From NCBI RefSeq assembly GCF_900119895.1, contig NZ_FQLR01000003.1, positions 124,001-188,000 on the forward strand: 64,000 bases of DNA, given 5' to 3'. The stretch's first letter is position 1, and each line of letters opens with the position of its first letter. Under the pieces are notes generated by a model. That model saw only the letters and a program-made list of their open reading frames with translations. It made no database searches and had not been told where the DNA came from. A program made the position numbers and the translations under genes. This DNA comes from Collinsella phocaeensis (GTDB taxonomy: Bacteria; Actinomycetota; Coriobacteriia; Coriobacteriales; Coriobacteriaceae). This document shows, piece by piece, positions 2,097 through 17,623 of this stretch.

Positions 2097-2353
2097 GTCG
2101 TGTCCCCCGCTTCCGCCGCTGTTCGTCGCAAGCAGCATACCGCAGGCGCACGGGCGCCAGGCGCTCTGTAACGCAGGCGAAACCCGGGGCCGGCGCACAA
2201 GCGGAACGGCGGCGCGACGCGGAGCCGCCTTAGCCACCGGTCCCGATGCGAGGCGCCCACATGACGGGCCCCACGCCGAGGCCTCGGTGTCCGAGCCCTG
2301 GTGTAAGCTGCTGTACGCAGGGTGCATGCATGCAGGAGAGGAAGGCTTGGCGC

Positions 2354-3049
2354 ATGACCGACTCGACGTTCGGGCAAGACTCCGGCGAACAGCGCGTCGT
2401 GGCTTACGCCGCGTTCGATGCGGCGGGCGGCGACGCCGCGCGCAGGCTGTCCGAGGACTTCGCGCAGGCGCTTGCCGCCTACGAGGAGCTCTCGCGGCGC
2501 CAGCTCCCCCATCCGGCTCCGCGGCTCGCCGCCGAGCGGATCGAGCGCACGGAGGAGGCCGGGCAGACGACGAGCGCGCGGCCTGCGGAGACGCGGCCCC
2601 TGGAGCGCCTCGTCGTGATCGCGAGCGACCCCGATACCGCCCTGTCCGATACGGCGGCAGCGCTCACGCTCCTGGGACGGCGCGGCGAGCTGGGCGCCGA
2701 CGCCCGCGTATGGGGCCTCGTGGCCAGCGAGCGCCATCGCCCCGACGACGCCGCGATCGCCCTCGAGACGCTCGGCGCGTCACTCGGCGGCGGGCGCGGC
2801 ACGTGGATGGGCGGGGTCGCCCTCGGCGGCGGCCGCCTCGCCCTTCCCGCGGCGGGCAGGCCGCGCATGGGAAGGCTGCGCGAGCGCGCGAGCGTCGCCA
2901 TCGACGGGCTCATCGGCGCCGTGCGCTGCGGCATCTCGCTCGACGAGGCAGCCCCGCTCTTTGGATTCGAGACCGAGCGCGGCGTGCTGGCCGCACCCAT
3001 CGGCATCTCCAGAGCCGAGTACCTGGTGCGGGACCGCATGCTCCGCTGA
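2354..3049 (+). CDS. hypothetical protein, possibly flavodoxin-like
   Basis: A 231-residue protein of no clear family. The start at 2354 (MTDSTFGQDSGEQ) is preceded by an AGGAGAGGAAGG stretch; an in-frame ATG exists at 2246 but with no conserved or sensible sequence. The C-terminal half has a WGLVASE strand and then GTWMGGVALGGGRLAL, reminiscent of the Gly-rich part of some flavodoxin-fold reductases, but the FMN phosphate-binding N-terminus is not evident. No signal peptide or membrane segment. It lies 117 bases upstream of the TerB/BrxD pair on the same strand, but a separate SOS-box promoter sits between them, so co-function is uncertain. Confidence 0.6.
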   Translation: MTDSTFGQDSGEQRVVAYAAFDAAGGDAARRLSEDFAQALAAYEELSRRQLPHPAPRLAAERIERTEEAGQTTSARPAETRPLERLVVIASDPDTALSDTAAALTLLGRRGELGADARVWGLVASERHRPDDAAIALETLGASLGGGRGTWMGGVALGGGRLALPAAGRPRMGRLRERASVAIDGLIGAVRCGISLDEAAPLFGFETERGVLAAPIGISRAEYLVRDRMLR

Positions 3050-3104
3050 TTCCGCCCGTCCCGTGCCGGTAAAGCGTCGAGCCTCCGGTCGCGGACGGAA
3101 AATA

Positions 3105-3118
3105 CGAACGCATGTTTG
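3105..3118 (+). promoter_or_regulatory. predicted LexA (SOS) box upstream of the TerB/BrxD-like operon
   Basis: CGAACGCATGTTTG matches the Bacillus-type LexA/DinR consensus CGAAC-RNRY-GTTYG at every defined position. It is embedded in a longer imperfect palindrome, AATACGAAC-gcat-GTTTGTATT (3101-3122). A TACGAT -10-like hexamer follows at 3129-3134 and the TerB start codon at 3167, so the box would cover the -35 region of the operon promoter. LexA control is inferred. Confidence 0.65.
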
Positions 3119-3166
3119 TATTGTGTGGTACGATGGAGGCTGCGACCGCGGGGAGAGGAGGGCGGC

Positions 3167-4996
3167 ATGGCGGACATCCAGGGCATCATCGACCAGATCA
3201 TGAACGACGAGCGCCTCAAGCGCAGCTCGCACTTCTCCGACACGGTCTTCGGCAGCGAGCCCATCCTCAAGACGGGACGCCAGATGTCGAGCTACCTCCC
3301 CGAACGCTACCGCGAGATGCGCGCCATCTCGCGCTGGCAGGAGGGCGCAGGCGGGCGGGCCGGCAGATGGCTCACCGAGGCGGAGCTCTTCGTGCGGCAG
3401 GCGGAGTTCATGGCCGATTTCGAGGATGACTGCCCCTATCGGGGCGATTTCGTCGCCTATTTCCCGACATACGGCTCGTTGAACGACCGGCAGCTGCGCG
3501 GGTACTTCACCTGGAGGGCACGCGTGCGATCCGGTGACGTTCCGCCTGCGCCCACCTCGTTCGCATATCTCTACCTGTACGAGCTCATCGCAGGCGTCGG
3601 CTACGAGGACCCGGCCGACGGGCTGCGCCTCATGCAGAGGTTCTGCGATGCCTTCAGCGCCCACGACCGCGCGATCCTTCGACTCGGCAGCGTCTGGATG
3701 CAAGACTTCGCCGTATACCACGCCCTCCCGGCCGATCTTTTGGGCAACACCCGCACCCTGCGGCACGACCGGGCGCTCGTCGAGCTCCGCCGCGCCACCG
3801 CCACGGCGCTCGACGCTCGGGCACATGCCGCCCGCGCCCTTGGGCGCAAAGCCCCCAAGGGCCTGCCCCTGCCCGCCCAGCAAGACCTCGAATCCGCGCT
3901 CATCGCGGCCCTCGACGAGCTCTCGAGCTATCGAATCTGCTCCGGGAAGCTCTACCGCGAACAACCCGAGGCCGTCGCCCACGTCGCAGGGTCGGTCTGG
4001 CTCCGTCTTGCCGACCACTATGCCCGGTCCCGCGCATCGGACGTGATCGAGCGCTTGTTCGGTTCGAGCGCCGAGCTTCCCTACACGATCTTCGCATCCG
4101 CCGTCTTCTTCGATCCGCTGCCCCACCCCGACAGCGTATACGAACTCGATCCAGTCCACCGCTACCGATGCCGCAACGGCCTTTGGACCTGCGAGCGCGT
4201 GCACGGGGCGGTCGGGCGCAGCTCCAAGCTCGGCAGCGTGCTGCGCGCGGTCGACGGAAGGCTGCGCGCCGCCGTCGGATTCGGCCATCCGCTCAAGGAG
4301 GAGAAGGTCCCCAAGTACCTAGCGGCCATCATCGACGCCGAGGCTGCGGCCTGGACCTCGTGGCACGAGGCGCATGCGCCCCGCCGCATCGCCATCGACC
4401 TCAGCCGCCTCGCCGGCATCCGGCGGACCGCGGAGGAGACGCGCGAGGCGCTGCTCGTCGATGAGGAACGCGAGGGCGCGGGGTCCATGCTCGACGCGGC
4501 CGACCGCGCTGGCGTCTCCTCCGATGGAGACGCGGCCGGACACGAGGCGGCAACGGATCCCGACCGCACGCAAACCGAGCCCACCGCGGCGGAGGGCGCA
4601 GACGGCCCGTTCGCGCCCGACGGCCCCGCACCGCTTCCCGCCGGCAGGACGAAGTCGCGCCCCGCCGCAACGGCACGCGACGACGCCGATGCGGCGGGGC
4701 GCGCGACCGATGCGCCGGCGTCCCTTGCACCCGCCGGGAATCACCCGCACGGCCCCACGCCGCACGGCCTCGACGGCCCGCAGGCCTCGTTCCTCCGCGC
4801 CCTGCTCAAAGGAGACCCGGAGCGCGTCGCCGAATCCGCCCGCGAGGCCGGAACCACGGTCGACCTGCTCGCCGACGCCGTCAACGAGGCGCTGTTCGAC
4901 GCCCTCGGGGATACCGCCGTCGAGTTCGACGCTAACGGCCCGCATATCGTGGAAGATTACCGAGAAGATATAGAGGAGCTGCTCGCCCATGCCTGA
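3167..4996 (+). CDS. TerB_N/TerB_C domain protein
   Basis: A 609-residue protein. The N-terminal part has the TerB_N signature: YFTWRARVRSG at about 113-123, then YLYLYELIAG at 134-143. The C-terminal part (about 390-609) resembles TerB_C: IDLSRLAGIRR, a linker rich in Ala, Asp and Pro (about 430-530), then LLADAVNEALFDALGD and a conserved acidic end, IVEDYREDIEELL. These domains flank TerB-type helical modules in multi-gene loci linked to stress response and DNA processing, often beside a DUF2791 ATPase. No TerB domain proper is obvious between them. The start at 3167 has GAGAGGAGGG upstream. The stop overlaps the next gene by 8 bases (ATGCCTGA), implying translational coupling. An SOS box lies 49 bases upstream. 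The molecular function is unknown. Confidence 0.8.
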   Translation: MADIQGIIDQIMNDERLKRSSHFSDTVFGSEPILKTGRQMSSYLPERYREMRAISRWQEGAGGRAGRWLTEAELFVRQAEFMADFEDDCPYRGDFVAYFPTYGSLNDRQLRGYFTWRARVRSGDVPPAPTSFAYLYLYELIAGVGYEDPADGLRLMQRFCDAFSAHDRAILRLGSVWMQDFAVYHALPADLLGNTRTLRHDRALVELRRATATALDARAHAARALGRKAPKGLPLPAQQDLESALIAALDELSSYRICSGKLYREQPEAVAHVAGSVWLRLADHYARSRASDVIERLFGSSAELPYTIFASAVFFDPLPHPDSVYELDPVHRYRCRNGLWTCERVHGAVGRSSKLGSVLRAVDGRLRAAVGFGHPLKEEKVPKYLAAIIDAEAAAWTSWHEAHAPRRIAIDLSRLAGIRRTAEETREALLVDEEREGAGSMLDAADRAGVSSDGDAAGHEAATDPDRTQTEPTAAEGADGPFAPDGPAPLPAGRTKSRPAATARDDADAAGRATDAPASLAPAGNHPHGPTPHGLDGPQASFLRALLKGDPERVAESAREAGTTVDLLADAVNEALFDALGDTAVEFDANGPHIVEDYREDIEELLAHA

Positions 4997-6284
4997 CACC
5001 GCCGTCACCTCCGGCCCGCGCGTCCCCAAGCGCGTGGCCGCGGTCATCCTCAACTCACTCAAGGGCGGCGTCGTGCCGCGCATCGGCCTGCCCTACATCA
5101 CGGTCGGGCGCGAGGTCGAGATCCGTGCGTTGCTCACCGACCTCGACCTCATCTCCGAGGGCGGGGCGAGCTTCCGCTTCCTCGTCGGCCGCTACGGCGC
5201 GGGCAAGAGCTTCCTGCTGCAGACGATCCGGACCCACGCCATGGGCGAGGGGTTCGTCGTCGCCGACGCCGACCTCTCTCCCGAGCGTCGCCTCCAAGGC
5301 GGCCAAGGGCAGGGCCTTGCCACGTATCGGGAGCTCATCCGCAACCTCTCCACCAAAACGAGACCCGAGGGAGGCGCGCTCGGCCTCATCCTGGACCGCT
5401 GGGTCGCCTCCGCGCCTGCCGGGGACGAGGCCTCCGCACGGGCCTCCATCGCGCACCTTGAAGAGCTTGTTCACGGGTTCGACTTCGCGCGCATGCTGAT
5501 GACCTACCGCACCGCCTCGATCGAGGGCGATGGCGAGCGGGCGTCGTGCGCGCTCCGCTGGCTGCGCGGCGAATACCGGACGAAGACCGAGGCGCGCGCC
5601 GACCTGGGCACCTCGACGATCATCGACGATGACAGCTGGTACGACTACATCAAGCTGTTCGCCGCGTTCCTCACCGGCGCGGGCTATCGGGGACTGCTCG
5701 TGCTGATCGACGAGCTCGTGAACCTGTACAAGATCCCCAACGCGATCACGCGCCAGTACAACTACGAGAAGATTCTCACCATGTACAACGACACCCTTCA
5801 AGGGAAGGCGCGGCATCTCGGCATCATCATGGGAGGGACGCCGACCTCCATCGAGGACCGCAGGCGCGGCGTCTTCAGCTACGAGGCGCTACGAAGCCGT
5901 CTCACGCAGGGGCGTTTCGCACGCGAGGACATGCGCGACATGCTCGCTCCCATCATCCGCCTGCATCCCTTGACCCATGAGGAGCTGCTCGTGCTCATCG
6001 AGAAGCTCGGGCAGATCCATGCCGGCTACTTCGGCTACACGTCGACCGTCACCGAAGAGGACCTTGCGGCGTTCCTGCAGATCGAATTCGGTCGCGTCGG
6101 CGCCGACACGCATCTCACGCCGCGCGAGGTGATCCGCGATTTCATCGAACTGCTCGACATCGCTTGCCAAAACCCCGACCTCGATATCTCCAAGCTCTTG
6201 CGCGACGAGGGAGCGCTCTCGGCCGGCGCCGACACCAAAGACCCGGACGACCCCGCGACAGCGTACGCGGAGTTCACCATCTAG
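4989..6284 (+). CDS. BrxD/DUF2791-type P-loop ATPase
   Basis: A 431-residue AAA-like ATPase. Walker A is GRYGAGKS (67-74) and Walker B is LLVLIDE (Asp241-Glu242), in the context typical of the DUF2791/BrxC-BrxD ATP-binding family (FLVGRYGAGKSFLL near the N-terminus, GLLVLIDELVNLYK in the middle). A GIIMGGTPTSIED segment follows, as in sensor-1 regions. In BREX phage-defence loci BrxD accompanies a helicase (BrxHI). Here there is no brxA/B/C, methylase, pglZ or helicase nearby; the only partner is the TerB_N/C gene, coupled by an 8-base overlap. A role in DNA damage response or defence is inferred from this pairing and the SOS box. Downstream the operon ends; the next gene is on the other strand. 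Confidence 0.82.
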   Translation: MPDTAVTSGPRVPKRVAAVILNSLKGGVVPRIGLPYITVGREVEIRALLTDLDLISEGGASFRFLVGRYGAGKSFLLQTIRTHAMGEGFVVADADLSPERRLQGGQGQGLATYRELIRNLSTKTRPEGGALGLILDRWVASAPAGDEASARASIAHLEELVHGFDFARMLMTYRTASIEGDGERASCALRWLRGEYRTKTEARADLGTSTIIDDDSWYDYIKLFAAFLTGAGYRGLLVLIDELVNLYKIPNAITRQYNYEKILTMYNDTLQGKARHLGIIMGGTPTSIEDRRRGVFSYEALRSRLTQGRFAREDMRDMLAPIIRLHPLTHEELLVLIEKLGQIHAGYFGYTSTVTEEDLAAFLQIEFGRVGADTHLTPREVIRDFIELLDIACQNPDLDISKLLRDEGALSAGADTKDPDDPATAYAEFTI

Positions 6285-6544: not shown

Positions 6545-8149
6545 CTACTCCTCTGCGGGCTTCAGCGCCTCGAAGGACTCGGCCACCGCATCGCTCGTGT
6601 CGCGCTTGCCGTCCGCATCGCGCTCGAGCTCGTGGATCAGACTGCAATACGAGTTTTCCGGCGCCGTCTCGATGGGAGCCTTCTTGGCGTACACCTTGAC
6701 CGCGCCCGCGGTCTTGGTGATGCCCTGAAGGGTGCCCGCACCGGCCACGCAACCGCCGGGGCACGCCATGCCCTCGAGCAGGTAACCGTCGTACTTGCCC
6801 TTCACGGCCGCCTTCATCATCTTGCGGCACTCGTTCAGGCCCTCCGCGCTGGCGACCTTGACCTCCATATCGGGATGGTCGCGATGGATCGCGTTGACGA
6901 CGGCGTTCGCCACGCCGCCCGAAACGGCGAAGCCGCGGCCGTCGGCGCTCGCCACGTCGAAGTCGCTCGAGCCCTCACCGGCAAGCTGGGTGTAGTCGAT
7001 GTCCTTGGCGGCCATCATGCCCGCCATCTCCTCGAAGGTGAGGACGAAATCGACCTCGGACTTCACGCTGCGGCGCATCGCCTCAAGCTTCTTCGCGGCG
7101 CACGGCCCGACGAACACGATCTTCGCCTTGGGATGCTGCTTGCGGATGAGGCGGGCGGTGAGCGTCATGGGCGTGAGGGCCATGGAGATGTTCTCGGCAT
7201 GCTCCGGGAACTCCTTCTTGGCCATGACCGACCAGGCGGGGCAGCACGAGGTTCCCATGAACGGCATCTTCGCCGGAACCTCCTCGAGGAAGTCCTCCGC
7301 CTCCTGGACGGCGCAGAGGTCGGCGCCCAGCGCGACTTCCTCCATGCCGGTGAAACCGAGCTCCTTGAACGCCTGGCGCAGCTTGTCGACGTTGCCCTTG
7401 CCGCCGAACTGGCCGACGAAAGCCGGGGCGACCTCGGCGATGACCTCGTCCCCCTCGCGAATCGACTTGATCACCTGGAAGATCTGGCTCTTGTCGGCGA
7501 TGGCGCCGAACGGGCAGTTCACGAGGCACTGGCCGCAGGATACGCACTTGTCGTAGTCGATCTTCGCGCGGCCCTGGTCGTCGGAGCCGATGGCCTTCAT
7601 GCCGCAGGCCTCGGCGCAAGGGCGCGTGTGATGGTGGATTGCGGAGTACGGGCACACGTTGGCGCAGCGACCGCACTTGATGCACTTGGACTGGTCGATG
7701 ACGGCGCGGCCGCCCTCGAAGGAGATGGCGCCCTTGGGGCAGATCTCGCGGCAGGGATGGGCAAGACAGCCCTGGCAAGCGTCGCTCACGCGGTAGACGT
7801 TGTCCTCGCATGCGTTGCAGGCGAAGTTGATGACGTTGATGAGCGGCGGCTCGTAATACGTCTCCGGCTTCGCGGCCTCGGCGACGCCCTCCGAAAGCTT
7901 CGCGGGCTTATCGACGCCCTGCAGCGGAAGGCCCATCGCCAGGCGGATGCGCTCGCCCACGATGGCGCGCTCCAAAAAGACGCTCTCGCGATAGGAGGCG
8001 ACGTCGCCCTGGATGATCTGGTATGGCAGCTCGTCGACCCAGGAGTAGTCCTCCTCCTGGCATTCGTAAGCGAGGCGAGCGACCTCCTCGAACACGGTCC
8101 GGCGGATCTTCGTCACGTTGGTGTAGACGCCGCGCATGGTATTGCTCAT
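6545..8149 (-). CDS. [FeFe]-hydrogenase, monomeric group B-like
   Basis: A 534-residue iron-only hydrogenase that interconverts H2 and protons plus electrons, probably cytoplasmic and ferredoxin-linked. Cys-rich [4Fe-4S] binding segments occupy about 110-215 (ICPKG, CIKCGRCANVCP, CVSCGQCLVNCP). The H-cluster domain has L1 TSCCPAW (300-306), L2 PCAAKK (349-354) and L3 EGMACPGGC (Cys463 and Cys467). TSCCPAW, where group A enzymes have TSCCPGW, and the domain order suit group B, typical of anaerobic actinobacteria and clostridia. The start at 8149 has GAGGGG upstream; a second in-frame Met is five codons in. No HydE, HydF or HydG maturase genes and no electron-transfer subunits are adjacent, so maturation genes must lie elsewhere. 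Confidence 0.92.
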   Translation of the reverse strand: MSNTMRGVYTNVTKIRRTVFEEVARLAYECQEEDYSWVDELPYQIIQGDVASYRESVFLERAIVGERIRLAMGLPLQGVDKPAKLSEGVAEAAKPETYYEPPLINVINFACNACEDNVYRVSDACQGCLAHPCREICPKGAISFEGGRAVIDQSKCIKCGRCANVCPYSAIHHHTRPCAEACGMKAIGSDDQGRAKIDYDKCVSCGQCLVNCPFGAIADKSQIFQVIKSIREGDEVIAEVAPAFVGQFGGKGNVDKLRQAFKELGFTGMEEVALGADLCAVQEAEDFLEEVPAKMPFMGTSCCPAWSVMAKKEFPEHAENISMALTPMTLTARLIRKQHPKAKIVFVGPCAAKKLEAMRRSVKSEVDFVLTFEEMAGMMAAKDIDYTQLAGEGSSDFDVASADGRGFAVSGGVANAVVNAIHRDHPDMEVKVASAEGLNECRKMMKAAVKGKYDGYLLEGMACPGGCVAGAGTLQGITKTAGAVKVYAKKAPIETAPENSYCSLIHELERDADGKRDTSDAVAESFEALKPAEE

Positions 8150-8321
8150 GGTTTCTGTCCCCTCTCGGCAGGTATGTGCACCTCCATTCTAATGGCCCCC
8201 GGGCGACACGAGCGCTTGCGACGAACCAAGAACAGTAAAAAGATTCGACGTGTTGCGCCCGCGCCGCCGTGCGGGTGTATCGTTCACAATCGATATACCT
8301 ACAACGCGAACGGGAGTCCTC

Positions 8322-9377
8322 ATGAAGCACGCATCAACCGATTACACCGTCATTTCCCGACGCGGCGTCCTCGCCGCGGGACTCGCCGCCGTGGCGGGCG
8401 CCTCCGCGCTCGCGGGCTGCGGGGGCCATGCCGAGGCCGGCTCCGCACCTGCAGGCTCGGCGCCCTCCCATGCCAGCGCAACCGAGGTGCGGGTCGCATC
8501 GCTCAAAGGGCCGACCTCCATCGGACTCGTCTCCTTCATGGACCGCGCGAAGGACGCCGACGCGTTTGAGAACGGCTACACCTTCACCGTCGCCACCTCC
8601 GCCGACGAGATCCTCCCCTCCATGATCAAGGGCGACCTGGACATCTCACTCATCCCCGCAAACGCCGCATCGGTCCTCTACAACAAGACCGAAGGAGGGG
8701 TGCGCTGCCTCGACATCAACACGCTCGGCGTTCTCTCCGTCGTGACCGGCGATGCCTCCCTCACCGATTTCGAGCAGCTCGCGAACCGCACCGTGTACCT
8801 CACCGGCAAGGGCACCACGCCCGAGTACGCCATGAACTACCTGCTTGCCGCCGCAGGCATCGCCGACACCGTCACGCTCGAGTTCAAAAGCGAGGCGGCC
8901 GAGGTCGTGAGCGTGCTCGCCGCCGACGCCTCCGCCGTGGGCATCCTCCCGCAGCCCTTCGTGACCGCCGCGCTCGTCAAGAACCCCGCACTCTCGGCAC
9001 CCATCGACCTCACCGACGTCTGGTCCGCCTACTCGGAGGACGGCAGCCGCATGGTGACCGGCGCCACCGTCGTTCGCGCCGCGTTCGCCGACGAGCACCC
9101 CGAGGCCGTCGAGGAGTTCCTCAAGGCCCAGAACGCCTCCGTGGACGCCGTGAACGACGATCCGTCCGCGGCGGCCCCGCTCGTCGTCGAGGCGGGCATC
9201 GTCGACGCCGAGCCGATCGCCGCCAAAGCGATCCCCGGATGCCACCTCGTCTGCATCACTGGGGATGACATGGCGGCCGCCCTCTCCGGCTACCTGCAGG
9301 TGCTGTCCGATGCCGATCCCTCCTCCGTGGGCGGCGCCCTCCCCGGCGAGGACTTCTACCTCGATCTCGACGCCTAG
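8322..9377 (+). CDS. ABC transporter substrate-binding lipoprotein (NMT1/TauA-like)
   Basis: A 351-residue exported solute-binding protein. The N-terminus has a twin-arginine-like SRRGVLAAGLAAVAG and a lipobox LAGC, so it is probably a lipoprotein anchored outside the membrane. The mature part resembles NMT1/SsuA/TauA-type periplasmic-binding proteins: it reads through RVASLKGPTSIGLV, a short segment that normally contacts the ligand, and continues in two lobes. It is 12 bases upstream of a fused permease-ATPase, giving a complete importer in two genes. The true start at 8322 lies after the frame's first ATG at 8250 and is where the signal peptide begins. The substrate is unknown (nitrate, sulfonate, pyrimidine or similar); no riboswitch is visible upstream. 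Confidence 0.83.
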   Translation: MKHASTDYTVISRRGVLAAGLAAVAGASALAGCGGHAEAGSAPAGSAPSHASATEVRVASLKGPTSIGLVSFMDRAKDADAFENGYTFTVATSADEILPSMIKGDLDISLIPANAASVLYNKTEGGVRCLDINTLGVLSVVTGDASLTDFEQLANRTVYLTGKGTTPEYAMNYLLAAAGIADTVTLEFKSEAAEVVSVLAADASAVGILPQPFVTAALVKNPALSAPIDLTDVWSAYSEDGSRMVTGATVVRAAFADEHPEAVEEFLKAQNASVDAVNDDPSAAAPLVVEAGIVDAEPIAAKAIPGCHLVCITGDDMAAALSGYLQVLSDADPSSVGGALPGEDFYLDLDA

Positions 9378-9389
9378 CATAAGGATCTT

Positions 9390-10802
9390 GTGATAGCCGT
9401 GCTCAACAGAACGACGACCGAAGCCCCGTCCTCCGGATCGAGCGCCCTCGCGCGCATCGGGTCCGTCGTGTTCTGGCTCGCCGTATGGCAAGGTGTGAGC
9501 ATGCTGGTCGGCAGCTCGTTCATCCTGGCCGGCCCGCTCGACACCGCCGCCGCCCTGGCGCACCTCGTGCCCACCGGCTCCTTCTGGTCCCATGTCGCCT
9601 TCTCCGCGATGCACATCGTCGCGGGGACGGTGCTCGGCTACCTCGCCGCAAGCGCCTGCGCCTTGGCCGCTCACCGCCTTCACGCGGTCCGCCTCCTTCT
9701 GCGTCCCGCCATGGCGGCCATAAAGGGCACGCCCATCGCATGCATCGTCGTCATCCTGCTCATCTGGATCGGGTCGCGCAACGCCAGCACGGCCGCCGTG
9801 TTCCTGATGGTGCTTCCGGCGATCTATTTCCCCATGCTGGGTGCCCTGGACTCGGTCGATCCCCGCATGCGGGAGCTTGCCGACGTGTTCGGCATGCGGG
9901 GCGCGCGACGTGCGCTCGCCGTCGTCTGGCCCCATGTGCTTCCCTACCTGCGCGCCGCGAGTGAGACGGCGCTGTCCATGAGCTGGAAGGCCGGTGTCGC
10001 CGCCGAGCTGATCGGAACCCCCACGGGTTCCATCGGTGAGCGCATCTACCAAGCGAAGCTCCTGCTCGAGACTGCCGACCTCTTCGCATGGACCGTCACC
10101 GTCATCGCCGTCGCCTGGCTGCTCGAGCGCGTCGCGCTCATGCTGCTCGACGCGACATGGCCCGCCGCGGGAAGCCTGGCCGTCCGCCTCGCGCGCAGCC
10201 GCCGCAGCCTGACCGCGTCTCCCGCCGCCAGCGAGCGCGCGGCCATCCTCTCCACCTCCGAGCTCGTCGTCGGCCACGACGACCTCGCCGCCGCGGGCCC
10301 CTTCACCTTCACCGTGCGGGGCGGTGAGACCTTGGTCCTGATGGGTCCGTCCGGAGCAGGCAAGACGACGCTGCTCTCCACTATCGCGCGCCAATGCGAG
10401 CCCCGTTCCGGCGTGGTCCAACTCGCTGCCGAGACGAACCTATCCGCCGTCTTCCAGGACGCCCGCCTCATCGATCAGCTGAGCTGCCTGGACAACATAC
10501 TCCTCGTCGCCCCAGGTTCGGACGCGTGCGCGTTGCTCGCCGAGCTCGGGCTTGCCGAGGTCGCCGGCCGGCCGGCGGACATGCTCTCGGGCGGCCAACG
10601 ACGTCGCCTCGAACTCGCCCGCGCGCTTGCCGCGCCCGCGCAGCTCACGCTTCTCGATGAGCCGTTTACCGGCCTGGACGAAGGGGCTCGCGACCTCGCG
10701 CTCACCTTCCTCGACCGTCACCGAGGCGATCGCGCAATCGTGCTCTCGACGCACAACCCGCGGGACGCCGAGCGGCTTGGCGCTCGCATCCTCCGCATCT
10801 AG
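9390..10802 (+). CDS. fused ABC transporter permease-ATPase
   Basis: A 470-residue protein joining two normally separate subunits. Residues 1 to about 260 are a BPD-type permease with five or six membrane segments and the EAA-like loop LADVFGMRGARRALAVVWP. Residues about 285-470 are a short ABC ATPase: Walker A GPSGAGKTT, signature LSGGQRRRLELARAL, Walker B LTLLDEP, and a switch histidine in STHNP. It starts with GTG at 9390, 12 bases after the binding-protein gene, with AAGGATC upstream. The ATPase is shorter than the usual 240-260 residues but keeps the catalytic motifs. Permease-ATPase fusion is uncommon in the nitrate/sulfonate importer class. A 12-bp stem hairpin follows the stop. Confidence 0.85.
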   Translation: MIAVLNRTTTEAPSSGSSALARIGSVVFWLAVWQGVSMLVGSSFILAGPLDTAAALAHLVPTGSFWSHVAFSAMHIVAGTVLGYLAASACALAAHRLHAVRLLLRPAMAAIKGTPIACIVVILLIWIGSRNASTAAVFLMVLPAIYFPMLGALDSVDPRMRELADVFGMRGARRALAVVWPHVLPYLRAASETALSMSWKAGVAAELIGTPTGSIGERIYQAKLLLETADLFAWTVTVIAVAWLLERVALMLLDATWPAAGSLAVRLARSRRSLTASPAASERAAILSTSELVVGHDDLAAAGPFTFTVRGGETLVLMGPSGAGKTTLLSTIARQCEPRSGVVQLAAETNLSAVFQDARLIDQLSCLDNILLVAPGSDACALLAELGLAEVAGRPADMLSGGQRRRLELARALAAPAQLTLLDEPFTGLDEGARDLALTFLDRHRGDRAIVLSTHNPRDAERLGARILRI

Positions 10803-16194: not shown

Positions 16195-17136
16195 TTAGTA
16201 GCGGTTGCGATTTCCGCTGAAGCCACCACGGCCGCCGCGGTCGCCGCCGCGGTCGAAACCGCCACGACGGTCACGGTCGCCGCCACGGCCACCGAAACCG
16301 GAGCGCGGAGCGCCATAGGAGCCGTGGCTGCGGTCGCCGCCGCGGTCGAAGCCGCCACGACCGCCGCGGTCGCCGCCGCGGTCGAAGCCGCCACGCCCGC
16401 CGCGGCCGCCGCGGTCGCCGCCGCGGTCGAAGCCGCCACGACCACCACGGTCGAAGCCGCCACGGCCACCACGGTCGCCGCCGCGGTCGAAGCCACCACG
16501 GCCGCCGCGCTCGTCACGGCCGCCGCGCGGGCCGCGATCCTCGTCGAGGCCAAGGGCGACGAGCGGCTCGATGACCTGATCGAGCTCATCGAGGAGCTGC
16601 TGGGCGGTCTCAGCGGAAAGCTGGGCGACGAGCTTCTTGCGCTTGTTGCCCTGAGCCTCCGCCATCTCGACGGCGTTCTCGCTCGCGAAGACAACGACCT
16701 TGCGCATGTCCTCGTCCTCGGGCTCGATACGGCCGACGATGTCGTTCTTCTCGGCTTCCTTCAGGATCTCGTTGAGCTCACGGAGACGCATGCCCATGAG
16801 ATCGGACATCTCCTTCTGCTCCATCTTGGGCTTGAGCTCGAGGAGCTTGAGCGCGCGGATCAGGATAGCGGTGCGCTCGGCCTCGGCCTCGGCCTCCTTA
16901 GCGAGCTGGGCACGGCGGTTGCGCAGCAGGCGGGCAGCGCGGTTCACCTTGTCGAACAGCTGGTCGTCGAGGTCCACGGGGGCCTCGCCCTTCTTCTCTG
17001 CTTCGGTCTCGGCGGAGACGGCGGTCTCGCTCGCCTCAACGGCCTCGGCGGCCTCGGTAGCGACCTCGGTCTCGGCTACGTTCTCGATGGTCTCGGTCTC
17101 GGTCATGGTCTCTTCGATCTCGCTGTTCTCAAACAT
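16195..17136 (-). CDS. winged-helix protein with a long RGG-repeat tail
   Basis: A 313-residue protein in three parts. Residues 1 to about 55 are acidic and Thr/Glu/Ala-rich. Residues about 60-190 are helical and contain a MarR-like winged helix (ILIRALKLLELKPKMEQKE, then MSDLMGMRLRELNEILK and DIVGRIEPEDEDMRKVV). Residues about 205-313 are almost pure Gly/Arg/Asp/Phe repeats of the type GGRGGFDRGGDRG, ending SGNRNRY. RGG boxes bind RNA and promote phase separation in other proteins. The start has AGGAGG 5 bases upstream, so expression is likely good. The neighbours are unrelated. No known enzymatic motif. A regulator whose tail binds nucleic acid is an inference. Confidence 0.78.
   Translation of the reverse strand: MFENSEIEETMTETETIENVAETEVATEAAEAVEASETAVSAETEAEKKGEAPVDLDDQLFDKVNRAARLLRNRRAQLAKEAEAEAERTAILIRALKLLELKPKMEQKEMSDLMGMRLRELNEILKEAEKNDIVGRIEPEDEDMRKVVVFASENAVEMAEAQGNKRKKLVAQLSAETAQQLLDELDQVIEPLVALGLDEDRGPRGGRDERGGRGGFDRGGDRGGRGGFDRGGRGGFDRGGDRGGRGGRGGFDRGGDRGGRGGFDRGGDRSHGSYGAPRSGFGGRGGDRDRRGGFDRGGDRGGRGGFSGNRNRY
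16199..16530. repeat. tandem GC-rich repeats coding the RGG tail
   Basis: Imperfect 9- to 30-base units based on CCGCCGCGGTCGAAGCC repeat many times on the plus strand, coding GGFDRGGDRGGR-type peptides on the minus strand. Such arrays can expand or contract, so repeat number may vary between strains. Confidence 0.85.
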
Positions 17137-17623
17137 GCGTTCCTCCTGCGCCCGCGGCGCTCTTTCGGCGGCGCCCTCACACGTTCACGCGCCGCATCTC
17201 ACAAAATCGGGCCTTCCGGCCGGACAGTAAGTTTAGGGTCGGATATCCCCGACGACGTGCAGAAACCATGCCTCCATAAAACGTGCGCCAACGAGGGTCG
17301 ACGAAAAGCGCGACGGAGCGGGGCGTCGAGACCCGATATCGGCCGCGATTGCGGCCCCCGATGTCCCAGCAGACCTCGAAAGGACGCTCGCGGCCGGACT
17401 CGAGCCCCCCCCCAGGCGGGCCGGGCATCCCCGTCAACTCCTGGCAGAACGCTCGGGGCAGCCCGGATTCCATTCCGGGTGCGGCCGTCCCAGCGGAGGC
17501 ATCCTCAAGACCCCCTCCGAGGCTGCAGGCCGCCCCGCAAGAAGACGGCACGGACCTCAAGCCATGACCAGCCGATTGGTAGTCGAGGCTCGGCGCCCGG
17601 AGAAGCCGCTCGGGAGGTCCGGC
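17137..17623. other. intergenic region with no recognised gene
   Basis: About 490 bases of GC-rich sequence between two minus-strand genes. A TAAACT hexamer (minus strand, near 17229-17234) could be a -10 for the RGG protein gene but lacks a -35. GTCGGGGATATCCGAC (17236-17251) is a short inverted repeat next to it. Nothing else can be supported. Confidence 0.4.

Follow-up and report, generated by a model that had tools for sequence, protein, structure and literature searches.

To which system do two overlapping genes, for a TerB_N/TerB_C protein and a BrxD-type ATPase, belong when no helicase stands beside them, and what controls their expression? The genes lie at 3167-4996 and 4989-6284 of a 64,000-nucleotide stretch of Collinsella phocaeensis DNA (contig NZ_FQLR01000003.1, positions 124,001 to 188,000; the whole stretch is called the window here, and coordinates without a contig label refer to it). 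We found that they are sngA and sngB of the anti-phage system Shango and that the third gene, sngC, lies elsewhere in the same genome. Shango is probably complete in this strain: a rearrangement would have split off sngC, and the sngAB and sngC units, both behind LexA-type operators, would be released by the SOS response to yield a DNA-acting complex. This is a known system in a new setting, for it is core here, has SOS-type operators and is split in two. The first-pass annotation of this DNA had observed the genes and the upstream box correctly; it did not name Shango, and its idea of a minimal variant did not hold.

The gene pair is sngA and sngB of Shango

We found that sngA (3167-4996, + strand) encodes 609 residues from an ATG start, with a GA-rich ribosome site immediately 5', and that sngB (4989-6284, + strand) encodes 431 residues. 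Both open reading frames (ORFs) are intact, and they overlap by 8 bases. In Pfam, the sngA product matches TerB_N (98.7 bits) and TerB_C (63.1 bits), both above cut-off, and the sngB product matches BrxC_BrxD (511 bits). The SngB translation keeps GRYGAGKS and LLVLIDEL intact, which we take to be Walker A and a Walker-B-like motif. Coordinates, Pfam and translation thus confirm the pair with its 8-base overlap and intact Walker motifs as first annotated.

Against the PADLOC profiles, the sngA product scored 246 bits with SngA (3.6e-73), and the sngB product scored 577 bits with SngB (6.3e-174) versus 147 bits with BrxD. Similarly, the SngA proteins that we aligned matched the SngA model in 26 of 26 cases, and no other model at 1e-5. 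As described in the accessible part of PMC10250203, Shango consists of three genes, for a TerB-like protein, an ATPase and a DEAD/DEAH helicase. The comparison with Shango supports the earlier suggestion of a stress or phage-defense module.

The pair had also been placed outside any bacteriophage exclusion (BREX) locus, and we agree: PglZ had no match anywhere in the genome, and the sngB product reached 148.8 bits against the NCBI BrxD model, whose cut-off is 350 bits. Neither a methylase nor BrxC was seen beside sngAB; these two were not searched for genome-wide.

The helicase gene sngC lies on another contig

Searching the genome with the SngC profile, we found a match on another contig (C1:500907-503300, - strand, 3.3e-263), the next match being at 2.9e-19. 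The gene, sngC, spans C1:500871-503306 (- strand), outside the window, and encodes 811 residues with intact DEAD and Helicase_C domains. Its product scored 874 bits with PADLOC SngC versus 408 bits with BrxHI. The helicase that the first-pass annotation named as a frequent third gene is therefore sngC of Shango, and it is present in this genome. There is no helicase beside the sngAB pair in the window. The sngAB operon ends after sngB, as had been claimed, because the next gene (6545-8149) runs on the opposite strand.

The arrangement in relatives was compared over 60 loci (G numbers denote genomes). We found the full order aminotransferase-sngA-sngB-FeFe hydrogenase-substrate-binding protein-ABC transporter-sngC-CapA-like gene in five of them (G023, G033, G040, G044 and G045), with the FeFe hydrogenase on the opposite strand, and the sngA-to-sngC part of it in G018 and G042; the aminotransferase, ABC transporter and CapA-like labels are ones that we presume. 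The window keeps this order as far as the ABC transporter, and it has one extra ORF (2246-3049) with a counterpart in 0 of the 60 loci. On C1, sngC still adjoins the CapA-like gene. The metabolic block at 6545-10802, recognized by Pfam and synteny, holds an FeFe hydrogenase on the - strand (Pfam match), a substrate-binding protein (matched weakly, below cut-off) and what is presumably an ABC transporter.

In G017 and in C. aerofaciens-type genomes, sngA, sngB and sngC are close together; hence, the metabolic block probably entered between sngB and sngC. The gene orders suggest that a later break in this genome moved sngC away, a direction of rearrangement that we infer. On another contig, too, is sngC of G019, and perhaps also that of G032, where both pieces are near contig ends. 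Among 58 loci with sngC in the family Coriobacteriaceae, the gap between sngB and sngC is below 500 bp in 33.

A conserved LexA-type operator precedes sngA

Upstream of sngA we found a LexA-type operator, CGAACGCATGTTTG, at 3105-3118, an exact match as the first-pass annotation had reported and the sole exact match to CGAACRNRYGTTYG within the window. Allowing two mismatches or fewer gave 39 sites in the window versus a mean of 27, and 7 of 100 shuffles reached 39. Such sites are near chance, and therefore we put the whole weight on the exact match and its conservation. A second strong LexA-like site, with one mismatch, lies at 17130-17143 (GGAACGCATGTTTG on the - strand).

To measure conservation, the core GAACN4GTTY was scored on either strand. 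Among the 62 Coriobacteriaceae genomes with SngB, upstream DNA was read at 58 loci (G004, G035 and G039, at contig ends, and G043 were left out), and the box precedes sngA in 58 of 58. A 300-bp search gave 55 of the 58, 320 bp added G002, and a wider one added G062 and G063, in which the first ORF start of sngA lies further upstream. Under a uniform rule the count was 56 of 56 (G057 and G040 were skipped; both have boxes). In comparison, 2447 tiles (250 bp each) taken from the same loci, away from the sngA and sngC starts, included 11 with the core. Chance occurrence of the box is rejected by its conservation, by these background tiles and by the lexA and recA controls given below.

Directly after the operator we found an extended -10, TGGTACGAT, at 3126-3134 (+ strand), which is kept in relatives. 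Since the extended -10 sits there, the operator would cover the place of the -35. In a set of 56 family loci, G057 and G040 among them, the operator core is followed every time by a TAnnnT hexamer, beginning 10-12 bp downstream, and in 51 of them this hexamer is part of an extended -10. A consensus sigma-70 scan gave no promoter at sngA, and no terminator was found. The earlier statement that the box sits over the promoter is thus favored by the conserved extended -10 and was not borne out by the scan. From the sequence, a LexA-type operator is present at the putative sngA promoter and is conserved in orthologs.

The combination of operator and extended -10 occurs at four places genome-wide (reversed control, 0), and the sngC and lexA sites are not among them. 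Three of these sites, at C2:43912-43940 and C2:48854-48899 (L315-L317), have no clear large gene downstream, and two of the three overlap and diverge.

lexA, recA and other LexA-type sites

We found eight distinct exact sites in the 2.1-Mb genome, one of them upstream of sngA and one upstream of sngC. The others belong to lexA, to the gene of a Y-family polymerase (IMS), to a RelB-type antitoxin, to an HNH-domain ORF whose longest reading just takes in the site, and to two small family-less ORFs. The HNH-domain ORF and the antitoxin gene (L004, L005) are further candidate SOS genes. Sites with one mismatch showed a modest excess genome-wide (38 forward and 40 reverse versus 26 and 25 in the reversed control).

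As controls, 25 of 26 genomes, drawn from four families, have the core at most 300 bp from lexA (the exception is G250), and a box precedes recA in 27 of 27 loci read, from a sample of 30 without G004, G035 and G039 (65 genomes have recA). The recA gene of this genome has a one-mismatch site. Its LexA has LexA_DNA_bind and Peptidase_S24 domains. Its lexA locus (C1, L277) and eight other family lexA loci have three operators each, 28 bp apart.

The box before sngA outside the family

To gauge the class, 40 SngB-bearing genomes outside the family were chosen for spread over genera; four were skipped (L236, L243, L248 and L262) and three had no A or B match (L235, L268 and L269). By the uniform rule, we found the sngA box in 3 of 27 loci in the sister family f2, 2 of 5 in f3 and 1 of 1 in f4; a narrower-window scan of the sister family gave fewer boxes, and the uniform-rule counts are used. 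Hence, SOS control of Shango appears fixed in Coriobacteriaceae and not class-wide. The predicted LexA operator itself is common to the class, unlike its place before sngA. Together, 58 of 58 in the family and 3 of 27 in f2 support the LexA-type control proposed in the first-pass annotation, which had named the orthologous loci as its own test.

In three f2 genomes of genus g11 (L233, L234 and L236), 1-2 kb separate sngC from sngB, and sngC carries an AAACN4GTTC box of its own; the region upstream of sngA showed no box in L233 and L234 and is unreadable in L236.

We found no published link between Shango and LexA in the open-access literature. In its accessible part, PMC13216270 mentions the two separately, unlinked, and that of PMC10693628, on LexA, anti-phage activity and an SOS box, concerns a WYL regulator, with no TerB.

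A detached sngC may tend to have its own operator

In this genome, sngC has an exact LexA-type site of its own at C1:503362-503375, 55 bp 5' of its ATG. Across the family, 20 of 58 sngC loci have a box: 17 of 25 in which sngC is at least 500 bp from sngB or unlinked versus 3 of 33 in which it is nearer (Fisher p 3.6e-6; C. aerofaciens-type genomes, closely related to one another, make up many of the 33). Over the class set, the counts were 20 of 31 distant versus 3 of 58 near. These counts are only suggestive that a displaced sngC tends to carry its own putative box.

By eye, the sngC boxes fall into two layouts: either the box precedes an extended -10, as it does at sngA, or it comes right behind a -10-like element. 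Because two layouts occur, more than one origin of the sngC box is suggested.

Distribution and inheritance

We found SngB in 62 of 65 Coriobacteriaceae genomes (56 of the 57 good ones) and SngC in 64 of 65 (57 of 57 good ones), and nearly every genome has a single match to each. Across the class, SngB was found in 163 of 396 sampled genomes. In 26 genomes, protein distances correlated with those of RecA for SngB (0.30, p 0.003) and SngC (0.50, p 0.0005); between SngB and SngC, the correlation was 0.66. Since SngB and SngC distances track those of RecA, inheritance looks mainly, not cleanly, vertical. Rather than a mobile island, Shango in Coriobacteriaceae appears to be a core function of the chromosome under SOS control.

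SngB relatives occur on 677 plasmid records, 448 of them from Klebsiella and 143 from Salmonella, with 538 typed conjugative. At E 1e-30, none was found in 50,697 phage records.

Predicted structure and mechanism

The AlphaFold2 model of SngA (mean predicted local distance difference test score 80; below 50 at residues 16-42 and 436-530) is helical in its N-terminal part and contains a small section rich in strands; residues 436-530 form a disordered linker, and the C-terminal domain is compact. When SngA was searched against the folds of the Protein Data Bank, nothing reached E <= 0.001. The top matches, still weak (E 0.1 and worse), span 72-85 columns and are winged-helix domains that bind DNA; by their size and the predicted elements, they may be placed in the TerB_C end.

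In the mechanism that we propose, LexA would keep the sngAB and sngC units low. DNA damage from phage replication, prophage induction or genotoxins would lead to RecA-stimulated LexA cleavage, freeing sngA-sngB and sngC from repression at the same time, in trans; the usual LexA switch is expected because LexA retains its DNA-binding and S24 peptidase domains. SngA would serve as the scaffold, its C-terminal TerB_C acting as a winged-helix domain that binds DNA and is held by a long flexible linker, and SngB, as an AAA-type ATPase, and SngC, as a superfamily 2 helicase, would join it in a DNA-acting complex. The SngABC complex would block replication of, or clear, foreign or damaged replicating DNA. 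The likeliest picture is thus of a DNA-bound ATPase-helicase complex made after damage. What the three genes are, the operators and how well they are conserved, the occurrence in almost every family genome and the different gene order can be read in the genomes themselves; LexA binding, induction, complex formation and defense in this host are what we would predict from them.

The conserved LexA-type operators tie Shango to DNA damage, and the defense system is here core rather than island-borne. A bolder proposal, which we hold tentatively and with some doubt, is that in Coriobacteriaceae a mobile anti-phage system was fixed within the SOS regulon and has been kept there by vertical inheritance, under selection for joint SOS control so strong that an sngC detached by rearrangement has or gains its own LexA operator, in two promoter geometries. 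If this is true, Shango would be a damage-triggered genome-integrity system that is anti-phage elsewhere and a core function in Coriobacteriaceae.

Evidence against and alternative explanations

Several results weigh against SOS-controlled, vertically inherited Shango. For the link between sngC distance and box, a control for relatedness, which left out SngC loci with fewer than 600 aligned residues, was not significant (median p 0.25); among 12 independent pairs, the two went the same way in 3.6, opposite ways in 0.3 and showed no difference in 8.1. Eight distant sngC genes have no box (G002, G031, G044, G045, G047, G049, G051 and G057), three near ones have one (G041, G063 and G064), and the sngC box of this genome, unlike that of sngA, has no extended -10 after it. 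The correlations with RecA, 0.30 and 0.50, give moderate support to vertical descent. Near-universal single-copy presence is unusual for a defense system and fits a repair function too. G030, which is 97% complete, has sngC with an operator (C18:23268-25730, L117) and no sngB match; its sngC may work on its own or be a remnant.

Outside the class, too, the counts are unfavorable. Among 16 named SngA-bearing loci, several of which have little upstream DNA, a box lies within 400 bp in three, all Paenibacillus, and an E. coli-type LexA box was not found before four gamma-proteobacterial plasmid Shango loci (Aeromonas, Pantoea, Klebsiella and Salmonella). In favor of SOS control, the box recurs in Paenibacillus: including two plasmids, a GAACN4GTTC operator lies 125-199 bp before sngA in four of seven loci (for L192, the distance is counted to a short SngA ORF of 340 residues), and lexA in five chromosomal genomes has the same operator type as sngA.

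We consider it rather unlikely, though well worth weighing, that sngABC is a domesticated DNA-repair or replication-stress module acting on the chromosome of its own cell, with phage defense a side effect or lost. The measured activity of Shango elsewhere is anti-phage: for P. aeruginosa, the accessible part of PMC10250203 reports inhibition of several phages in plaque and liquid assays, modest on plates. All three proteins score best with Shango profiles, in a defense library (repair families were covered by Pfam and NCBIfam only), and the plasmid records, most of them typed conjugative, are as expected of defense. A repair module would nonetheless account for the single match in nearly every family genome, for an operator type in common with lexA, recA and the Y-family polymerase, and for the absence of SngB relatives from the phage records searched.

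We hold it unlikely that the main role of SOS control is to restrain resident prophages, which the same signal induces, and not lytic phages that enter from outside. As general knowledge has it, LexA release is timed with prophage induction, and we presume gut Collinsella to be lysogens; against this stands the range of phages that Shango hits elsewhere (PMC10250203, accessible part). We retain LexA-controlled Shango acting on foreign or damaged replicating DNA as the preferred explanation.

A minimal two-gene variant lacking the helicase, as the first-pass annotation put it, had the absence of a helicase beside the pair in its favor; it is now very improbable and was rejected, since the same genome carries, unlinked, an 811-residue SngC with intact helicase domains and its own box, and the gene order of relatives explains why sngC is absent from the window. 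A decayed BREX remnant, for which membership of sngB in the BrxC/BrxD Pfam family speaks, is next to impossible and was likewise rejected, with PglZ absent, the BrxD cut-off missed, SngC far above BrxHI, the genes intact and the sngABC set carried by relatives (BREX genes were not part of that comparison).

Comparison with known systems

BREX and the present locus have in common the Pfam family of SngB, BrxC/BrxD, and BrxHI is the second-best PADLOC match of SngC; in the accessible part of PMC12278908, SngC groups with the helicases BrxHI, DruE and DpdJ. They differ in that this genome has no PglZ and that its sngB product falls short of the BrxD cut-off.

The operators are of the type of the Gram-positive LexA/SOS regulon, including the lexA and recA boxes. 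In contrast to that regulon as known, an anti-phage system is a conserved member here.

The closest system is Shango itself. All three proteins score best with its PADLOC profiles, and the order in relatives in which the three genes are found together is A-B-C. The Shango described in the accessible part of PMC10250203 is a three-gene unit in a defense hotspot, cDHS1 of P. aeruginosa PA14. Here, in contrast, sngC is unlinked, on another contig, so that the three genes do not share one operon, and linkage-based defense finders may score this genome incomplete although all three Shango parts are present. Both units have LexA-type operators upstream, and the locus is core in Coriobacteriaceae rather than a variable island.

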